Assembly (NCBI RefSeq): GCF_900110255.1
Contig: NZ_FODD01000003.1
Span: 234,643 to 298,642, forward strand
Source: Actinacidiphila rubida
Lineage (GTDB): Bacteria; Actinomycetota; Actinomycetes; Streptomycetales; Streptomycetaceae
Length of the DNA: 64,000 nt
Direction of reading: 5' to 3'
This document shows, piece after piece, positions 55,831 to 64,000 of this stretch. The notes under the pieces are model-generated. The model was not told where the DNA came from, did no database searches, and saw nothing but the letters and a program-made list of their open reading frames with translations. A program made the translations under genes and the position numbers. Numbering within the stretch: position 1 is the stretch's first letter; each line of letters opens with the position of its first letter.

Positions 55831-56406
55831 GTGGGAGTCAGCCTCAGCAAGGGTGGCAACGTCTCGCTGACCAAGGAGGCGCCGAACCTCACGGCGGTCG
55901 TCGTGGGCCTGGGCTGGGACGCCCGGACCACCACGGGATCGGACTTCGACCTGGACGCGAGCGCGCTGCTCACCAACGACCAGGGCAAGGTCCTGTCCGA
56001 CCAGCACTTCGTGTTCTTCAACAACCTCCGCAGCCCCGACGGCTCGGTGGAGCACACCGGCGACAACCTCACCGGTGAGGGCGAGGGCGACGACGAGGTG
56101 ATCAACGTCAACCTGGCGGGCGTGCCGGCCAACGTCTCCAAGATCGTCTTCCCGGTCTCCATCTACGACGCCGAGACCCGCCAGCAGAGCTTCGGCCAGG
56201 TCCGCAACGCCTACATCCGCGTGGTCAACGCCGCCGACAGCCGCGAACTGGCCCGCTACGACCTGACCGAGGACGCCTCGACGGAGACCGCGATGGTCTT
56301 CGGCGAGCTCTACCGCCACGGCGGCGAGTGGAAGTTCCGCGCCATCGGGCAGGGCTACGCGTCGGGTCTGCGCGGCATCGCGCAGGACTTCGGCGTGAAT
56401 GTCTGA
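55831..56406 (+). CDS. terD: TerD family protein, first tandem copy
   Basis: 191 residues, full-length TerD domain. Calcium-binding acidic motifs are [10 protein letters not shown] and [12 protein letters not shown] with [12 protein letters not shown]; the C-terminal [20 protein letters not shown] is diagnostic. TerD proteins act in tellurite, oxidative and phage/colicin resistance and in Streptomyces influence development, but their molecular role is unsettled. GTG start with GGAGG eight bases upstream. It is 52 bases before the second copy, probably in one operon. Confidence 0.94.
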
Positions 56407-56458: not shown

Positions 56459-57034
56459 ATGGGCGTCACGCTCGCCAAGGGAGGCAATGTCTCCCTCTCC
56501 AAGGCCGCGCCGAACCTCACCCAGGTCCAGATCGGCCTGGGCTGGAGGGCCCGCTCGACCACCGGTGCCGACTTCGACCTGGACGCCAGCGCGCTGCTGT
56601 GCTCCGGCGGCCGGGTGCTGGGCGACGAGTACTTCGTCTTCTACAACAACCTCAAGAGCCCGGACGGCTCCGTCGAGCACACCGGTGACGAGCTGGTCGG
56701 CGGCTCCGGCGGCGACGACGAGACGATCCTGGTCGACCTGACCAAGGTTCCGGCCAACGTCGACAAGGTCGTCTTCCCGGTCTCGATCTACGACGCCGAT
56801 GCCCGCGTGCAGACGTTCGGGCAGGTCAGCGACGCGTACATCCGGGTGCTCAACCAGTCCGACGGTGCCGAGCTGGCACGATACGACCTGACCGAGGACG
56901 CCTCGACGGAGACCGCGATGATCTTCGGCGAGCTGTACCGCTACGGCGGCGAGTGGAAGTTCCGGGCCGTTGGCCAGGGGTACGCGTCCGGGCTGCGCGG
57001 GATCGCCCTAGACTTCGGGGTCAACGTTTCGTAA
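56459..57034 (+). CDS. terD: TerD family protein, second tandem copy
   Basis: 191 residues, very close to the upstream TerD; differences cluster in the N-terminal third (LLCSGGRVLGDEYFVFYNNLK instead of LLTNDQG). The acidic [10 protein letters not shown] and GDDETILVDL motifs are intact. DNA of the two genes is identical for 39 bases at 56257-56295 and 56882-56920, suggesting recent gene conversion. GGGGAGG precedes the ATG. The paralogs may form mixed assemblies. Confidence 0.94.
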   Translation: MGVTLAKGGNVSLSKAAPNLTQVQIGLGWRARSTTGADFDLDASALLCSGGRVLGDEYFVFYNNLKSPDGSVEHTGDELVGGSGGDDETILVDLTKVPANVDKVVFPVSIYDADARVQTFGQVSDAYIRVLNQSDGAELARYDLTEDASTETAMIFGELYRYGGEWKFRAVGQGYASGLRGIALDFGVNVS

Positions 57035-57095
57035 AGCCGCGTACCGCGCGGGGGACCTCGTGGTCACAGGTCACAAGGAATTGGGTGGGAAGCAC

Positions 57096-58313
57096 GTGCT
57101 CCTCAGAACTTTCGGCTGGTCGCTGGGCGTCACCGTCCTCGGCCTGGCCCTGGCCTTCTACGTCTGGGGGGCGAAGGGACTCGCGATCGTCGCGATCCTT
57201 TCCGTCCTTGAGATCTCGCTGTCCTTCGACAACGCCGTCATCAACGCGGGCATCCTGCGCAAGCTGAACGCCTTCTGGCAGAAGATGTTCCTGACCGTCG
57301 GCGTGCTGATCGCGGTCTTCGGCATGCGGCTGGTCTTCCCGGTGATCATCGTCGCGATCACCGCGAAACTCAGCCCGTGGGAAGCGGTCAAGGTCGCCAT
57401 CAACGACCACGACCGCTACGAGACCCTGGTCACCAACGCCCACCCGGCGATCGCCGCGTTCGGCGGGATGTTCCTCCTGATGATCTTCCTCGACTTCATC
57501 TTCGAGGAGCGGGAGATCACCTGGCTGAGCTGGCTGGAGAAGCCGCTGGCCAAGCTCGGCAAGCTGGACATGCTCTCCGTGGTGATCGCCATGGTCACCC
57601 TGGTCGTCTTCGCCACCACGGTGGCCACCGGCGTCCCGCTGCACGGCGGCCACGGCACCGTGGACAAGGGCGAGACGGTGCTGCTCGCCGGCGTCGGCGG
57701 CCTGATCACCTACCTGGTGGTCGGCGGCATCTCGGGCTACTTCGAGGAGCGCCTCGAAGAGGACGAGGACGGCGACGAAGACGGGGAAAACGGGGACGGG
57801 GACGACGACCGGGACGACGTGAACGGGAACGGGGCCCGCGAGGGCGCCGGGACGTCGAAGGCGGCCGCGGGCAGTGGCGCCAGCGTCATGCGGGTCGCGG
57901 GGCTGGCCGGCAAGGCCGCGTTCTTCATGTTCCTCTACCTCGAGGTCATCGACGCGTCGTTCTCCTTCGACGGTGTCGTCGGCGCCTTCGCGATCAGCAA
58001 CGACATCTTCCAGATCGCGCTCGGCCTCGGCATCGGCGCCATGTACATCCGGTCGCTGACCGTCTTCCTGGTCCGCAAGGGCACGCTGGACGACTACGTG
58101 TACCTGGAGCACGGCGCCCACTACGCGATCGGCGCGCTGGCGTTCATCCTGCTGTTCACGATCAAGTACGACGTGAGCGAGATCGTCACCGGCCTGGTCG
58201 GCGTTGTCCTGATCGCGGCCTCCTACTGGTCGTCGGTGGTACGCAACCGCCGGCTCGGGGAAGAATCCCAGCAGTCGGACGACGACAAGGCAGAGGTGAC
58301 GTCCGGGGTCTGA
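57096..58313 (+). CDS. DUF475/TerC-like integral membrane protein
   Basis: 405 residues, with about nine membrane helices in two related halves. Each half carries the TerC-type acidic signature: LEISLSFDNAVINAG (38-52) and LEVIDASFSFDGVVGAF (282-298). Intramembrane Asp/Asn of this kind suggest metal-ion transport; TerC relatives export Mn2+. A cytoplasmic loop at about 218-242 is almost all Asp/Glu/Gly. GTG 57096 gives the family N-terminus LLRTFGWS; GTG 57060 is possible. It follows the terD pair and ends at a hairpin. Confidence 0.88.
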   Translation: MLLRTFGWSLGVTVLGLALAFYVWGAKGLAIVAILSVLEISLSFDNAVINAGILRKLNAFWQKMFLTVGVLIAVFGMRLVFPVIIVAITAKLSPWEAVKVAINDHDRYETLVTNAHPAIAAFGGMFLLMIFLDFIFEEREITWLSWLEKPLAKLGKLDMLSVVIAMVTLVVFATTVATGVPLHGGHGTVDKGETVLLAGVGGLITYLVVGGISGYFEERLEEDEDGDEDGENGDGDDDRDDVNGNGAREGAGTSKAAAGSGASVMRVAGLAGKAAFFMFLYLEVIDASFSFDGVVGAFAISNDIFQIALGLGIGAMYIRSLTVFLVRKGTLDDYVYLEHGAHYAIGALAFILLFTIKYDVSEIVTGLVGVVLIAASYWSSVVRNRRLGEESQQSDDDKAEVTSGV

Positions 58314-58330: not shown

Positions 58331-58358
58331 ACTGCCCCCGCCACCCGGCGGGGGCAGT
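58331..58358 (+). terminator. Terminator after DUF475 gene
   Basis: ACTGCCCCCGCC-ACCC-GGCGGGGGCAGT, a perfect 12-bp stem with a four-base loop, 18 bases after the stop. It closes the terD-terD-DUF475 unit. Confidence 0.87.
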
Positions 58359-58428
58359 GCCATGTCGAGCGAACGTCCGGAGAACCCGAGAGCACGTCGA
58401 GCACGTCGAGGGAAGGCGGAGACGGCAG

Positions 58429-59160
58429 ATGCCCTGGTGGAGCTTTCTGCGGCCCAGTGGAGCCCAGCAGTTCGACATCGGCAACGCGCACACCGTGGAA
58501 CTCACCAGGCGGCGCCCCGAGCTGTCGCTGACCAAGCAGGGCGCCGCCGTCGGCAACCTGCGGGTCAACCTGTCCTGGCAGATGCGCACGTCGGACACCG
58601 GCGGCTGGACCACCGAACGCGGCAGCTTCCTGCGCCGCCAGCTGGAGATCTTCAAGCCGCGGGTGGTGCAGGCGGCCGGTCCCGCCATGGTCAACGTCGA
58701 CCTGGACCTGGCCTGCATGTACGAACTCACCGACGGCAGCAAGGGTGTGGTGCAGCCGCTCGGCAACTTCCTCGGCGACCTGGACAGCCCGCCGTGGATC
58801 CAGATGAGCGGCGACGACCGGTTCGGCGGCACCTCGGGTGAGACGCTGTACATCAACTTCGACAAGCGCGACGAGTTCAAGCGGCTGCTGGTGTTCGTCT
58901 ACATCTACGACGGCACGCCCGCCTTCGACCGTACCCACGCCAAGGTGGAGATCTTCCCCGGCTCCGGGCCGCGGATCGAGATCCCCCTCAACGAGCGGGA
59001 GCCGCAGGCGCGTTCGTGCGCGGTGGTGCTGATCGAGAACCGCAAGGGCGAGATGTTCGTGCGCCGCGAGGTGAAGTACGTCTACGGCTTCCAGGCGGAG
59101 ATCGACCGGCTGTACGGCTGGGGTCTGCAGTGGGGCCGCGGCTACAAGTCGAAGGTCTAG
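58429..59160 (+). CDS. TerA/TerD-like tellurium resistance family protein
   Basis: 243 residues of the TerA branch. A short N-terminus (MPWWSFLRPSG) leads into VNVDLDLACMYELTDGS, the counterpart of the TerD acidic motif, then GETLYINFDKRDEFKRLLVFVYIYDG and a C-terminal RREVKYVYGFQAEIDRLYGWG. The second TerD calcium loop is altered, so metal binding may differ. Likely a cytoplasmic partner of the TerD proteins. ATG preceded by GGCGGAGA. It lies between two terminators, so it is transcribed alone or partly by read-through. Confidence 0.85.
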   Translation: MPWWSFLRPSGAQQFDIGNAHTVELTRRRPELSLTKQGAAVGNLRVNLSWQMRTSDTGGWTTERGSFLRRQLEIFKPRVVQAAGPAMVNVDLDLACMYELTDGSKGVVQPLGNFLGDLDSPPWIQMSGDDRFGGTSGETLYINFDKRDEFKRLLVFVYIYDGTPAFDRTHAKVEIFPGSGPRIEIPLNEREPQARSCAVVLIENRKGEMFVRREVKYVYGFQAEIDRLYGWGLQWGRGYKSKV

Positions 59161-59313: not shown

Positions 59314-61326
59314 GTGCCGGACTGGCCTGGGCGGTCCTTGCGGGACCGGGCGATACGCGCCTACGCGGAGCCGTTGCTGGTCCGCACGCCAGGGCCGGTG
59401 GGCCGGCTGCCCGCGGTGCTGCTGCTGGGCCCGCGCGGCAGCGGCAAGACCACGCTGCTGCGGCGTCTGGAGGCCTGGGGGCGGGCCGCGCCGCTGGCCC
59501 ACCTGGACCTGGCGGCGATGGAGCGGGACGGCAAGACCCTTTTCGACGCGCTCGCCGACCTCGCCTTCCAGCTGCAGGCCCGCAAGGACGACGTGCCGCC
59601 GCTGGGCTTCCCGTCGTTCACGGTGCTGCTGCTGGCCGCCGCCGCGGCCGTCAGCAGCCGAGACCGGCCCGCGGCGATCGCCGAGATGCAGACCCTGCTG
59701 CAGGGCCCCGACCGCCAGGAACTCTCCCTGGAGACCGTCCAGCCGCTGCTGGACGGCGCCGCCGCGGTCAGCGGCGGGCTGCTGCCCGGCTGGGTCACGC
59801 AGATCGTGCCGGTCATCCGCAGCACCCAGCGGCTGCAGGCCAAGGTGCGGCTCAGGCGCCGGATCGCCCAGGCCAGCCACGACGTCGGCGGCCCGCGCGC
59901 GGGTGCCGACTTCCTCGTCAGCGTCAACCAGCTGTTCCACGGCTACCCCGAGCAGCAGCGCGAGGCCCAGCGGCTGCTGCTCGAAGGGTTCCTGGCCGAT
60001 CTGCGCGCCGCCTACGAGACCCGCGCGGGGCACGGCAGGCGTACCACGCACTGCCTGGTGCTGCTGGACAACGCCGACGGTGAACTCGGCGAGGAACTGA
60101 TGCAGTTGCTGCTCGACGCGCGCGGCGGCGTGCCGGGGCGGCCGGGCCGGACCGACCCGCTGCTGGTCCTGGCGACCGCTCGCCGCACGCCGGAGACACT
60201 GGTCCGCGAGGAGCGGCGGCTGGCGGCCCCGCCGCGGTACAGCGACGGCTGGTCGGCGGAGGGCGAGCGCTTCGCCCCGGTGCCGGCGGGCCGGCTGCAC
60301 GTGGGCCGGCTGCGCGACCTGAACCGGGCAGAGGTCGAGGACCACGCCAAGGAGGTCCTGTCCGCGCTCCCCGACGGCGCCGTGCGCCCGGACGCCGAAC
60401 GCTCCGCCAACGCCTCGTATTGGCTGGGCTGGGTCGTGTACACCGCGACCCGCGGCCAGCCGGCGGCCACCGGCGCCGTGCTGGACGCGCTGTCCCGCTT
60501 CCCGGCCGGCACGCCCTGGGACCAGCGCGTGCAGGGCTGGCCCGCGCTGCCGTCCGCGGCCGCGGGAGGCGGTGCCGAGGCCCGCGAGCGGCGCCACCCG
60601 ACCGTCGCGGACACCGTCCTGGACTGGCTGCTCGCGGACTGCCCGGCGGGCCTGCGCGCGGTGCTGCCGCGGGCCGCGGCCGCGGTCACCCAGGGCCAGG
60701 CGGAGGCCGCCACGCAGCTGTGGCGGGGCGTACCGCCCGCCCTGGTGCGGCAGTTCGAGGACGACGGCCGCCTCGTCTACCACCCGGTGGTGCGGTTCCT
60801 GCTGCTGCGCCAGTTGGAGGCGGTCACCGGCGACGGGCCGGGCACCTGGAACGGCGCGCACACCGCGCTGGCCGACGCCGCCGGCGACGACGAGCGCACG
60901 GTGGCCTACCACGACCTGGCCGCGGACCGGCTGGACGCGGCCGTCGACCACCTGCACGCCCGCTTCCACCTGATGCCCGCCGAGCGGTGGTGCGACGACC
61001 TGGCGCTGATCCAGCGGGCCCCGGCCCGCAGGCTCGGCGGACGGCCGGAGACGGCCCGCATCCGGTACATGCGGCTGGTGGGCACGCCGTGGGGCGACGA
61101 GGAGCGGCAGGCGATCACCCGGCTGCTGGTGGCCGGATGGATCACCGCGCACCCGCGCTCCGCCCCGTACGCCGATGGCTACGAGGACCCGCTCGGCGAC
61201 CCGTACGCGGAGCTGTACGCGTACATCGCCGACGAGTTCCGCACCCTGCGCCGCCTGACCCGGGCCGAGACGGACCGGGACGTCTTCAAGGCCAGGGCCG
61301 AGCAGTACGAGAGGAAGCCGTGGTGA
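59314..61326 (+). CDS. P-loop NTPase of unknown function (STAND/AAA-like), Ter-associated
   Basis: 670 residues. Walker A is GPRGSGKTT (39-47), Walker B is HCLVLLDNADG with Asp252, and LLVLATARRTPE forms a sensor-like strand after it. This resembles STAND or AAA-type switches. The C-terminal 350 residues are helical with many Trp/Leu/Ala repeats and no recognised effector domain. A hydrophobic stretch LLLAAAAAVSS near 110 is not long enough for a membrane helix. The GTG start has weak GGGGGAA before it. Its TGA overlaps the next start (GTGA), so NTPase and receptor are made in step. Function unknown; I suggest a cytoplasmic signalling switch. Confidence 0.8.
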   Translation: MPDWPGRSLRDRAIRAYAEPLLVRTPGPVGRLPAVLLLGPRGSGKTTLLRRLEAWGRAAPLAHLDLAAMERDGKTLFDALADLAFQLQARKDDVPPLGFPSFTVLLLAAAAAVSSRDRPAAIAEMQTLLQGPDRQELSLETVQPLLDGAAAVSGGLLPGWVTQIVPVIRSTQRLQAKVRLRRRIAQASHDVGGPRAGADFLVSVNQLFHGYPEQQREAQRLLLEGFLADLRAAYETRAGHGRRTTHCLVLLDNADGELGEELMQLLLDARGGVPGRPGRTDPLLVLATARRTPETLVREERRLAAPPRYSDGWSAEGERFAPVPAGRLHVGRLRDLNRAEVEDHAKEVLSALPDGAVRPDAERSANASYWLGWVVYTATRGQPAATGAVLDALSRFPAGTPWDQRVQGWPALPSAAAGGGAEARERRHPTVADTVLDWLLADCPAGLRAVLPRAAAAVTQGQAEAATQLWRGVPPALVRQFEDDGRLVYHPVVRFLLLRQLEAVTGDGPGTWNGAHTALADAAGDDERTVAYHDLAADRLDAAVDHLHARFHLMPAERWCDDLALIQRAPARRLGGRPETARIRYMRLVGTPWGDEERQAITRLLVAGWITAHPRSAPYADGYEDPLGDPYAELYAYIADEFRTLRRLTRAETDRDVFKARAEQYERKPW

Positions 61327-62831
61327 CACAGGAAACCGACGGCCTGGAACCGGCGTTCCGGGTGCCGCGGGCGCGCCGCCGCAGGTGGCCGTGGATCGGG
61401 CTGGCGCTGGTGGTCGTGGCCGCCGCGGTGACCACGGGGATCCGGCTGGCGGGCGGCGGCGACGGCTGCGGCCACGGCGTGCCGAAGGCCGGGCCCGCGC
61501 ACGAGTGCATCGGCGTCACCGACGGCAGCACCGTCTTCGAGCCGTCGCTCGCGCCGGTCATGGCGAAGATCCGCGCCGAGAACGCCCGGGTCGCCGCCGC
61601 CGGCCGCCCGTGGGTGAGCGTCGCCTACGTCGAGCCGATCACCACCGACCCGCAGGACGAGGCGACCAAGTACGGCATCCGCGAGGAGCTGGAGGGCGCG
61701 TACCTGGCCCAGCGGCAGCTGAACGACGCGCAGCTCGGCGGGCGCGGCGACACCCCGCAGGTCAAGCTGCTGGTCGCCAACATCGGGACGCGCTCGGAGC
61801 AGTGGAAACCGCTGACCGACCGGCTGATCGCGATGACGACGGACGGCAGCCGGCTGGTCGCGGTCGCCGGGTTCGGGCAGAGCCGCGGCGGCACGTTGGA
61901 CGCGGTACGGGCGCTGCGGGCCGCGAAGGTTCCGATGATGGGCGCCACCGTCACCGCCGACAACCTGGCGTCCGCGACCCAGGTCGGGTTCTTCCGGACG
62001 TCCGCGCCCAACTCCGCCCAGGCGAGCGCCGCGGTGAACTACCTCCGGCAGAAGCAGCGCGCCACGCCCGGCTACCAGGTCCTGGTGATCAGGGACCGCA
62101 ACCAGGACGACATCTACAACACCTCGCTCTACGACGACTTCGTCCAGGCGGCCGGGAAGGCGTCGCTGAAGCTGGTGGACGGGGACCTGGAGTACGTCTC
62201 CGGTGTCGACGGGATCAGCAACGCCTTCTCGTCGGTCGCCGACCGGGTGTGCGACAAGAAGCCGGCCGCGGTGTACTTCGCGGGGCGCGGCGTCAACCTG
62301 CGGGCCTTCATCACCGCGATGTCCGCGCCCGACCGCCGCTGCCCCGTGACCGTGCTGACCGGGGACGACGCGATCGGCGTGTACCCGGACAGCGCGACGA
62401 GCCAGAGCGTGCGGGACCGGTTCACCGCGAGCTGGAAGGCCAGCGGCGTCACCGCCCTGTACACCGCGCTGGGCCACCCCGAACTGCCGGCCCGGCTCTA
62501 CCCGGCGGCCCGCGACCCGTTCCCGGGCTTCGTGCAGCTCTACCACGACGAGTTCGGCGCGGGCCCCGACAACTTCCAGGACGGCCAGGCGATGCTGGCG
62601 CACGACGCGCTGTGGACGCTGGGCGTCGCGATCCGGGACGCCGCCGGGGACGGCACGGCCACCGTCAACGCGGGCAGCACCCTGAACGCGCTGGTCAGCG
62701 CGGGTTCCGTCGCGGGTCTCAGCGGACCGATCGAGCTGGGCTCGGACGGCAACCCGCGGAACAAGCCGATGGCGCTGGTGCGGCTGGAGCCGAGCGGCAC
62801 CTACACGTTCATCGGGGTCGTCCGGCCCTGA
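61323..62831 (+). CDS. Membrane-anchored substrate-binding-protein-like receptor
   Basis: 502 residues. A 23-residue basic cytoplasmic tail (RVPRARRRRWPW) and one membrane helix (25-43) anchor a periplasmic-binding-protein fold of the branched-chain amino acid/ANF-receptor type: LEGAYLAQRQLNDAQLGG, VAVAGFGQSRGGTLDAVRALRAAKVPMMGATVT and YQVLVIRDRNQDD. There is no lipobox, and no permease or transport ATPase is nearby, so a sensing role is more likely than uptake. GTG 61323 overlaps the NTPase stop by four bases. Ligand unknown. Confidence 0.82.
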   Translation: MTQETDGLEPAFRVPRARRRRWPWIGLALVVVAAAVTTGIRLAGGGDGCGHGVPKAGPAHECIGVTDGSTVFEPSLAPVMAKIRAENARVAAAGRPWVSVAYVEPITTDPQDEATKYGIREELEGAYLAQRQLNDAQLGGRGDTPQVKLLVANIGTRSEQWKPLTDRLIAMTTDGSRLVAVAGFGQSRGGTLDAVRALRAAKVPMMGATVTADNLASATQVGFFRTSAPNSAQASAAVNYLRQKQRATPGYQVLVIRDRNQDDIYNTSLYDDFVQAAGKASLKLVDGDLEYVSGVDGISNAFSSVADRVCDKKPAAVYFAGRGVNLRAFITAMSAPDRRCPVTVLTGDDAIGVYPDSATSQSVRDRFTASWKASGVTALYTALGHPELPARLYPAARDPFPGFVQLYHDEFGAGPDNFQDGQAMLAHDALWTLGVAIRDAAGDGTATVNAGSTLNALVSAGSVAGLSGPIELGSDGNPRNKPMALVRLEPSGTYTFIGVVRP

Positions 62832-62860: not shown

Positions 62861-62897
62861 CGCTGACCCCGGCGCCGGACCGGCCCCGGGGTCAGCG
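62861..62897. terminator. Bidirectional terminator between receptor and TerD-tail genes
   Basis: CGCTGACCCCGG (62861-62872) and CCGGGGTCAGCG (62886-62897) are perfect 12-bp arms around a 13-base loop. The right arm overlaps the stop codon of the convergent TerD-like gene. Confidence 0.85.
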
Positions 62898-63869
62898 CCG
62901 CGGCTGGAACTGGGGGCCCTGCGGCGGCAGCGAGAACCCGCCGTCGCCGTTCGCCGGCGCGGCGGGGGGCGCCGCGGGCGGCGCGGGGTGCGGCGGGACG
63001 ACCGGCGCGGCCATGGGCGGGGCCGCGACGGGCTGCGGGTAGCCGTAGGCCGGGTAGCCCTGCTGCGGCTGCTGGTGGACCTGGGGCGGCGCGGCCGGGG
63101 GCGCGGCGGGCGGTGCCGCGCTCATCGGCTGCGGGTAGCCGTACGCGGGCTGGGCGGGCACGTGCGCGGGCGAGGGGGCCTGCAGGGGGTAGCCGTAGGC
63201 ACTGGTGGCCGCGGGCTCGGCGGCGGGCCCGCCGCCACCGGAGGCCGTCTGCTGGGCGCCCAGCGGGGCCGTGGGCACCGAGGCCGGGCGGACCGGGCCC
63301 TGTGCCTGCGCGGGCGCCTCCTGCCCGTCGTCCACTGCGACTCCGTGGTCGGTGGCGAGTCCGACCAGGCCCGAGGCGTAGCCCTGGGCGAGCGCGCGGA
63401 ACTTCCAGCCGGCGCCCTTGCGGTACAGCTCGCCGCAGATCAGCGCGGTCTCCTGGCCGGTGTCGGGCACGACCTCGAAGCTCACCACGGGCGCGGCGTG
63501 CTGCGGTCCCGCGGTGTCGTACAGGGTCAGGCTCAGGTCGCGCACGGTGCGGAACGGCCCGCCGTCGCAGGACGCGGCGATCACCACGCGGTCCACACCG
63601 GCGTCCAGCGCCGCCAGGTCGACCTCGAGGGTGTCGGTCAGGCCCTCGGGCACGCGCTTCTTCGGGAGGTGGCGGGCCAGGCCCGACGGGTGCCGCGGCT
63701 CGTTGTAGAAGACGAAGTCGTCGTCGGTGCGGACCCGGCCGTCGGGGCCCAGCAGCAGCACGGAGGCGTCCACGTCGGGCGCGCCGGGGCCGGGGGTCCA
63801 GCGCAGCACCGCCCGCACCCCCGTGACGTCCAGCGGGGTGTTCGAGCCCTTCACCATCACGTGCGTCAT
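62892..63869 (-). CDS. TerD family protein with Pro/Tyr/Gln-rich C-terminal tail
   Basis: 325 residues. The TerD domain (about 1-170) has PDVDASVLLLGPDGRVRTDDDF, SLTLYDTAG and the diagnostic ELYRKGAGWKFRALAQGYASGL. It is divergent from the tandem TerD copies: the first Asp motif is reduced. The following 150 residues are disordered, with repeats of AYGYP and PQP such as QQPQQGYPAYGYPQP, a composition linked to condensate or multivalent interactions. ATG 63869 gives the usual MTHVM-KGSN start; ATG 63878 is the alternative. It converges with the receptor gene. Confidence 0.88.
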   Translation of the reverse strand: MTHVMVKGSNTPLDVTGVRAVLRWTPGPGAPDVDASVLLLGPDGRVRTDDDFVFYNEPRHPSGLARHLPKKRVPEGLTDTLEVDLAALDAGVDRVVIAASCDGGPFRTVRDLSLTLYDTAGPQHAAPVVSFEVVPDTGQETALICGELYRKGAGWKFRALAQGYASGLVGLATDHGVAVDDGQEAPAQAQGPVRPASVPTAPLGAQQTASGGGGPAAEPAATSAYGYPLQAPSPAHVPAQPAYGYPQPMSAAPPAAPPAAPPQVHQQPQQGYPAYGYPQPVAAPPMAAPVVPPHPAPPAAPPAAPANGDGGFSLPPQGPQFQPRR

Positions 63870-64000
63870 ACCGGTCATCCTGCCCTTCCGGCGGGGCGCC
63901 CCACAACGCCGGGTGCGGCCGGGGGTGGGCGGCGGTCGCGGAGGGCAGGCGTCCGGAGGGACGGTCACCGGGTGGACCTGCCGCGGTTACCTGCTTTTCA

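Follow-up and report, generated by a model that had tools for sequence, protein, structure and literature searches.

A near-invariant C-terminal peptide on a tailed TerD protein of Streptomycetaceae, a candidate docking motif

Described TerD systems and fusions

TerD, the ter locus and TerD fusions are already known, and the closest described relatives of the protein studied here are the classical TerD/TerE/TerZ proteins of the ter locus (PF02342; PDB 3ibz from S. coelicolor, 2kxt/2kxv from Klebsiella). These classical proteins carry an acidic loop, DNxTGxGxGDDE, which we take to be their calcium site. Adjacency of TerD and TerC genes to a biosynthetic operon, as in the locus studied here, is also a feature of the Ter-dependent stress response systems (Anantharaman, Iyer and Aravind 2012, as cited in PMC8115787 and PMC4633105), and the passages of those two papers on such systems do not mention a C-terminal peptide. 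A passage of PMC4633105 also cites TerC as residing in the membrane, where it contacts TerB and TerE, and TerD as cytoplasmic. For S. coelicolor, a passage of PMC7244524 names SCO2367-68 as tellurium resistance proteins, which are probably the adjacent classical TerD pair of that species, and an antisense RNA listed as conserved in a passage of PMC3765725 lies opposite sco2364, a gene that by gene counting might be the S. coelicolor counterpart of the tailed TerD described below. The text strings LPPQGPQF, PPQGPQF, YGYPQP and GYGYPQ were not found in the literature searched, where sequences are rarely printed as text, and no description of the C-terminal peptide appeared in its titles and abstracts, a scope that leaves out most subscription papers.

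TerD domains are also joined to other modules through linkers. One kind is the TerD-vWA fusion (TerF-like, PF10138), and in 4 of the 20 StiP loci examined from outside Streptomycetaceae, all of family f28, a protein with a TerD domain (52-55% identity), a linker and a vWA domain lies divergent to the C-C lyase, as the tailed TerD does in the locus studied here. The MIDAS motif was present in all four, and PF10138 in the one scanned. These proteins place a folded vWA domain after the linker and have neither PPQGPQF nor YGYP, whereas the tailed TerD carries a short peptide only. The other 16 non-family StiP loci contain no TerD with the tailed TerD as its best match, and at least two of these 16 (L311, L324) have a classical-type TerD divergent to the lyase. 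The TerD-linker-TerA fusions (L010 in the source genome; L263 and L266 elsewhere) share with the tailed TerD a TerD-type domain and a Pro-rich linker, but they hold the TerA domain in the same chain, where the tailed TerD has a TerA-like protein encoded as a separate neighbouring gene; identity to that TerA-like protein is 40% for L010 and 43% for L263. Two further architectures were noted on the side, namely an Mrr-type restriction endonuclease domain fused to a C-terminal TerD domain in the source genome (L011 1-1950, plus strand; G000:C18:26388-26816) and a single protein combining a TerD domain, a long Pro-rich linker and an AIM24 domain (L008 358-2058, minus strand).

The tailed TerD and its conserved peptide

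Here, we describe a TerD protein with a long C-terminal tail, encoded in a 64,000-nucleotide stretch of the Actinacidiphila rubida genome that we call the window and to which all positions refer (Table 1). Its Pfam scan, for which a longer frame starting at 63968 served as query, returned PF02342 as the sole domain detected (E 1.5e-40; 139.2 bits against a cut-off of 25.3; profile positions 1-187 of 187), so that a C-terminal vWA domain of the TerF-like kind was not found. Sequence matches in the PDB were 3ibz (E 2.2e-25) and 2kxt (E 4.3e-22). AlphaFold gave a confident TerD fold for residues 1-180 (block pLDDT 85-97) from a single chain and a shallow 12-row alignment, a kind of model that docking in cis or onto a partner could escape. 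The top Foldseek match of the model was 3ibz (TerD; E 8.9e-15, TM 0.80 by target length), aligned over residues 16-178. The second (model of 62895-63869) was chain B of 9a6r (E 1.3e-14), whose title refers to an integrative model of GLPD-SCP2, and in which a fold like that of TerD is modelled together with a partner enzyme. PADLOC made no assignment for the tailed TerD. It differs from classical TerD, including the two 191-aa tailless copies in the window, in having no DNxTGxGxGDDE acidic loop; in alignment A2 this loop is replaced by RHLPKKRVPEGLTD. The calcium role envisaged in the preliminary description found no support, and calcium binding by the tailed TerD is doubtful because of this replacement.

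Table 1. Positions in the window of the tailed TerD gene, its parts and its neighbours
Feature	Position	Strand	Basis or remark
Tailed TerD gene	63869..62892	minus	ATG 63869; 325 aa; stop codon 62892-62894
TerD domain, residues 1-182	63324..63869	minus	PF02342, PDB 3ibz/2kxt, AlphaFold, Foldseek
Disordered Pro/Ala/Gln/Tyr tail, 143 residues (183-325)	62895..63323	minus	translation; AlphaFold
YGYP unit 1 (SAYGYPL)	63186..63197	minus	translation, DNA pattern; sequence context conserved within genus
YGYP unit 2 (HVPAQPAYGYPQP)	63132..63143	minus	translation, DNA pattern, genus comparison
YGYP unit 3 (PAYGYPQPV)	63036..63047	minus	translation, DNA pattern, genus comparison
C-terminal peptide F-S-L-P-P-Q-G-P-Q-F, proposed docking motif	62907..62936	minus	ortholog conservation, alignment A1
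Classical TerD (neighbour)	55831..56406	plus	PF02342 E 1.6e-87; 191 aa, no tail
Classical TerD (neighbour)	56459..57034	plus	PF02342 E 1.5e-79; 191 aa, no tail
TerC-family membrane protein (neighbour)	57060..58313	plus	PF03741 E 1.1e-17, PF04332 E 6.2e-127
TerA-like protein (neighbour, convergent with tailed TerD)	58357..59160	plus	similarity to TerD-TerA fusions
STAND/AAA-like ATPase gene	59314-61326	plus	between TerA-like and tailed TerD
Periplasmic-binding-protein-like gene (Peripla_BP_6)	61323-62831	plus	between TerA-like and tailed TerD

The preliminary description had pointed to a low-complexity tail of Pro, Ala, Gln and Tyr with AYGYP units, and the translation bears this out, with 143 residues that include three AYGYP units, 7 Tyr, 3 Arg, no Lys, 3 Asp/Glu and a terminal FSLPPQGPQFQPRR. 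The range originally assigned to it (62892-63370) includes, besides the tail, ~15 residues from the end of the domain. The disorder proposed for it agrees with the AlphaFold model, which has zero predicted secondary structure beyond residue 180 and pLDDT values of 40-64 in 14 of 15 tail blocks (70 in the remaining one). We further checked whether the tail might be absent or unconserved among orthologs, and it is kept across those of Streptomycetaceae. YGYP lies far above shuffled expectation, with 354 copies in a pool of 130 unique tails (a pool that includes tails fetched via the C-terminal motif, 25 of 132 unique, and excludes two tails without an in-frame motif) compared with a mean of 0.95 and a maximum of 5 in 200 composition-preserving shuffles; PPQGPQF occurred in none of these shuffles. 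At the DNA level, TRF found no tandem array over the YGYP units.

For the ortholog comparison, 181 loci were collected, 176 of them with a complete ORF (5 without), which gave 134 unique proteins and, after removal of 2 TerD-TerA fusions, 132 unique tails. Subtracting the 25 that had been fetched through the motif itself (loci L176-L219) left 107 homology-retrieved orthologs, one per genome and 34 of them from the window's genus. TerD paralogs L068-L074 (vWA motif in the six complete ones; L073 cut) were excluded by choice.

Across these 107 orthologs the tail ranges from 44 to 304 residues and YGYP from zero copies (18 orthologs) through one (8), two (10), three (43) and four (16) to five (12). 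The median spacing between YGYP units is 17 residues (range 5-42), and three units are present in 27 of the 29 genus orthologs counted. The 18 orthologs without any copy rule out YGYP as the main conserved element, and the zero nonsynonymous changes at YGYP are uninformative, since the units were picked by that very string. The source genome contains 37 YGYP DNA sites, three of them in the tailed TerD gene; of 30 such loci read, three were this gene and many others lay in unrelated Pro/Gln/Gly-rich disordered proteins. Five complete tails were read from genera g2 and g5; their linkers are very different, they have no YGYP, and all five have PPQGPQF. YGYP as the functional core of the tail was therefore not supported, the repeat being missing from 18 orthologs in which the C-terminal peptide stays and being common in unrelated proteins of the genome. 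Two side observations concern the linker: the g2/g5 tails (L259-L262, L264) carry a near-copy of the motif at an internal position, MP[PQ]GGPQ[YL], which possibly makes the tail bivalent, and a further short conserved stretch, [FYW]T[LI]AP, occurs in 13 of the 107 tails (L079, L092, L097, L098, L101-L105, L110-L113).

The most conserved tail segment is FSLPPQGPQF, near the C-terminal end, which the preliminary description had not mentioned. The pattern P.[QM]GP[QR]F was found within the last 30 residues of 105 of the 107 homology-retrieved orthologs, 91 of them with exact PPQGPQF, and in the two exceptions (L037, L274) the motif is present in another frame, pointing to an apparent frameshift or sequencing error. 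At the flanking F-x-L positions of the 105 motif carriers, F is found in 94 and L in 97; the motif variants seen were SPPQGPQF, NPPQGPQF, PPMGPQF and PLQGPQF. In the pooled set (n=130) the motif ends 1-11 residues before the C-terminal end, and the sequence in these 1-11 residues is variable. Alignment A1 (50 sequences) consists of the window's own sequence and 49 drawn from 89 further listed orthologs; beyond the TerD domain, P315, G318, P319, Q320 and F321 are the sole columns without variation.

Codon comparisons point the same way. Pairwise differences over the 105 sequences amounted to 9940 synonymous and 1389 nonsynonymous in the motif codons, and to 3011 synonymous and 31271 nonsynonymous in a comparison window starting 10 residues upstream, a contrast that is partly built in because the motif sequences were chosen for the motif, so that its weight rests on the synonymous variety together with the contrast. 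The 91 exact PPQGPQF copies are encoded by 30 distinct 21-mers. Judged from these comparisons and the searches below, the peptide is, in the genomes sampled, near-invariant, terminal, restricted to one family and one gene, and under selection at the amino-acid level; within the tails compared, the C-terminal peptide is the conserved part and the YGYP repeats are the variable part.

Distribution and gene neighbourhood

A protein search with the tailed TerD gave a match in all 35 genus genomes and, at E 1e-60, in 89 of 121 Streptomycetaceae genomes. A profile of 50 orthologs matched all 121 family genomes at E 1e-40, the best match not always being a tailed TerD: in G048 the best matches are TerDs that lack the motif, and no tailed TerD is present in its ter locus. 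Zero matches were obtained at E 1e-30 in 15 genomes from other families of the order, and in the class at E 1e-50 the 24 matching genomes among 246 consisted of 21 Streptomycetaceae and 3 of family f28, the latter through TerD-vWA proteins. Among plasmids, 2613 records matched the tailed TerD, none of them over 80% of its length, and the top five of these were annotated as vWA-domain proteins.

The motif itself was followed by DNA pattern searches for LPPQGPQF, which miss the variants SPPQGPQF, NPPQGPQF, PPMGPQF and PLQGPQF. In the order, 65 of 99 genomes had one site each, and in the class 29 of 394, all in Streptomycetaceae, with 0 sites for the reversed-pattern control; 84 of the 99 order genomes are Streptomycetaceae, 19 of them without the exact LPPQGPQF pattern. 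We read 45 of the 65 distinct sites, all of which lie 3-5 residues ahead of a stop, and 44 of which belong to ORFs that bear a loose TerD signature, the remaining one being truncated by the contig start. The source genome has 13 stretches matching the TerD domain, and the terminal motif was not found in its other TerD proteins whose sequences were read. The sole other exact LPPQGPQ site of that genome (L115) falls ~100 residues short of the end of a stop-to-stop frame 608 residues long, which was taken as non-coding. With up to 2 mismatches the motif had 103 sites in the source genome against 363 for the reversed control, i.e., no enrichment.

The tailed TerD sits between the TerD-TerD-TerC-TerA-like genes of the window and a divergent lyase/PRTase-StiP operon, which lies just past the window end and encodes a C-C lyase (PF15617) together with a PRTase_2-TRSP-StiP-PELOTA protein. 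The gene is thus linked to TerC, to other TerDs and to the lyase/PRTase-StiP-PELOTA operon, as expected of a Ter stress locus. "TerA" is a label assigned in the present analysis from fusion similarity, as the TerA-like protein matched no Pfam family. Beside it, the ATPase and Peripla_BP_6 gene pair was seen in two of the 27 family neighbourhoods examined, the window's and L234, and not in the remaining 25; it looks like a two-gene insertion.

Among 27 family neighbourhoods (15 spread across the family, one of them the window's own, and 12 picked mainly as odd cases), the TerA-like gene was present in all 27 and convergent in all 26 that have a tailed TerD, and TerC was present in 26, the exception being a 4.4-kb contig. 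StiP was found in 113 of the 121 family genomes, and the 8 with no StiP match all retain the tailed TerD and its C-terminal motif beside TerA, which rules out the StiP/lyase operon as sole or obligate partner. In these StiP-less loci (L341-L347 and L350, the last being the 4.4-kb contig), neither lyase nor PRTase-StiP was found beside the tailed TerD, and the TerA side is kept. A link between YGYP number and StiP loss was likewise rejected, as the StiP-less genomes have 1, 2, 0, 0, 0, 0, 3 and 0 copies and the StiP-positive g3 members read also have 0-1. G048 (L348) offers the reverse case, in which TerA is followed directly by the lyase and StiP genes. It is the one neighbourhood of the 27 without a tailed TerD, and its TerA keeps 19 of 22 family-specific positions; the 3 that differ are a weak hint at best, and co-change of TerA with the absence of the tailed TerD was set aside.

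A proposed docking peptide and its alternatives

In SSB and FtsZ, a folded domain is followed by a disordered linker that varies in length and sequence and then by a conserved C-terminal docking peptide. The tailed TerD has the same shape, i.e., a folded domain, a variable disordered linker and a fixed terminal peptide, and we read it for this reason as a TerD-domain adaptor protein that offers a C-terminal docking peptide to a partner on a flexible tether, a reading to which we give a probability of about 0.6; the likeness to the SSB and FtsZ tips concerns the working mode alone, and no sequence kinship is claimed. In such an arrangement, the folded TerD domain would act within the Ter stress machinery encoded next door, and the long tail of variable length would hold out the near-fixed F-x-L-P-P-Q-G-P-Q-F so that it could dock in a pocket of a partner protein. 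A second module, such as the TerA or vWA domain that relatives carry behind a comparable Pro-rich linker, may here be recruited through the peptide instead. The YGYP/PQP stretch would then serve above all as a soluble tether, its weakly sticky tyrosines being optional.

We infer partner binding by the peptide from its sequence conservation. The putative partner would be the neighbouring TerA-like protein first, or else another TerD or TerC; the TerA-like protein heads these candidates because its gene is adjacent and relatives have TerD fused to a TerA domain, and naming it is a guess, since the TerA of G048 is so little changed where the tailed TerD is missing. More tentatively, at odds well short of even, F-x-L-PPQGPQF may be the recognition code of a dedicated pocket in the Ter machinery of Streptomycetaceae, with a linear motif rather than a fused domain wiring TerD to its partner (TerA-like first, then other TerD or TerC).

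The strongest rival to docking on a partner is docking in cis, in which the TerD domain of the same chain, or of another copy, receives the peptide, which would then be an intramolecular lid or a self-assembly latch and need no separate partner. The TerD domain is the only partner guaranteed wherever the peptide occurs, and the retention of the peptide in 8/8 StiP-less family genomes fits; a latch does not obviously need tethers of 44 to 304 residues, however, and the AlphaFold tail has no secondary structure and low confidence (shallow alignment), so that we regard docking in cis as unlikely. Somewhat less credible still is the mechanism of the preliminary description, in which Ter complexes assemble or phase-separate at the membrane with calcium, driven by the Tyr-rich YGYP/PQP tail as a multivalent sticker-spacer region. 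The low complexity of the tail, its repeated and spaced Tyr units, their number in the genus and their excess over shuffles speak for such a mechanism, but 18 of 107 orthologs do without YGYP and tail length ranges from 44 to 304 residues; Arg and Lys, the usual partners of Tyr stickers, are almost missing from the tail (3 Arg, 0 Lys), YGYP recurs in many unrelated disordered proteins of the source genome, and the classical acidic loop is gone. No feature pointing to the membrane was found, and the multivalent-assembly mechanism, which draws on the variable repeats of the tail, gained no positive support here. Ter complexes in general may still associate with the membrane, given the TerC contacts cited in the passage of PMC4633105.

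Docking aside, the motif may have another role, e.g., in marking the protein for degradation or in directing its localisation. Control of protein amount by a processing or degradation signal would suit a location near the extreme C-terminus, but the variable 1-11 residues past the motif are unlike signals read from a free carboxyl end and 8-10 nearly fixed residues are long for such a motif, which makes it improbable. Least credible of all is a functionless, ordinary Streptomyces low-complexity tail produced by compositional drift of GC-rich DNA. Drift may account for much of the linker, as high GC is expected to yield Pro/Ala/Gly-rich sequence and YGYP is found in many disordered proteins of the source genome; for the C-terminal peptide it is contradicted by near-invariance despite synonymous change, and the peptide was found only in the tailed TerD gene and in Streptomycetaceae in the samples searched.

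The tailed TerD carries a wider lesson, in that eye-catching low-complexity repeats can be the variable part of a protein and a short terminal peptide the conserved part. TerD domains are numerous in the source genome, and the peptide provides a concrete and cheap bait for finding a partner. If the pocket-code reading is true, it would give a handle on how the TerD/TerC side connects with the neighbouring biosynthetic operon.
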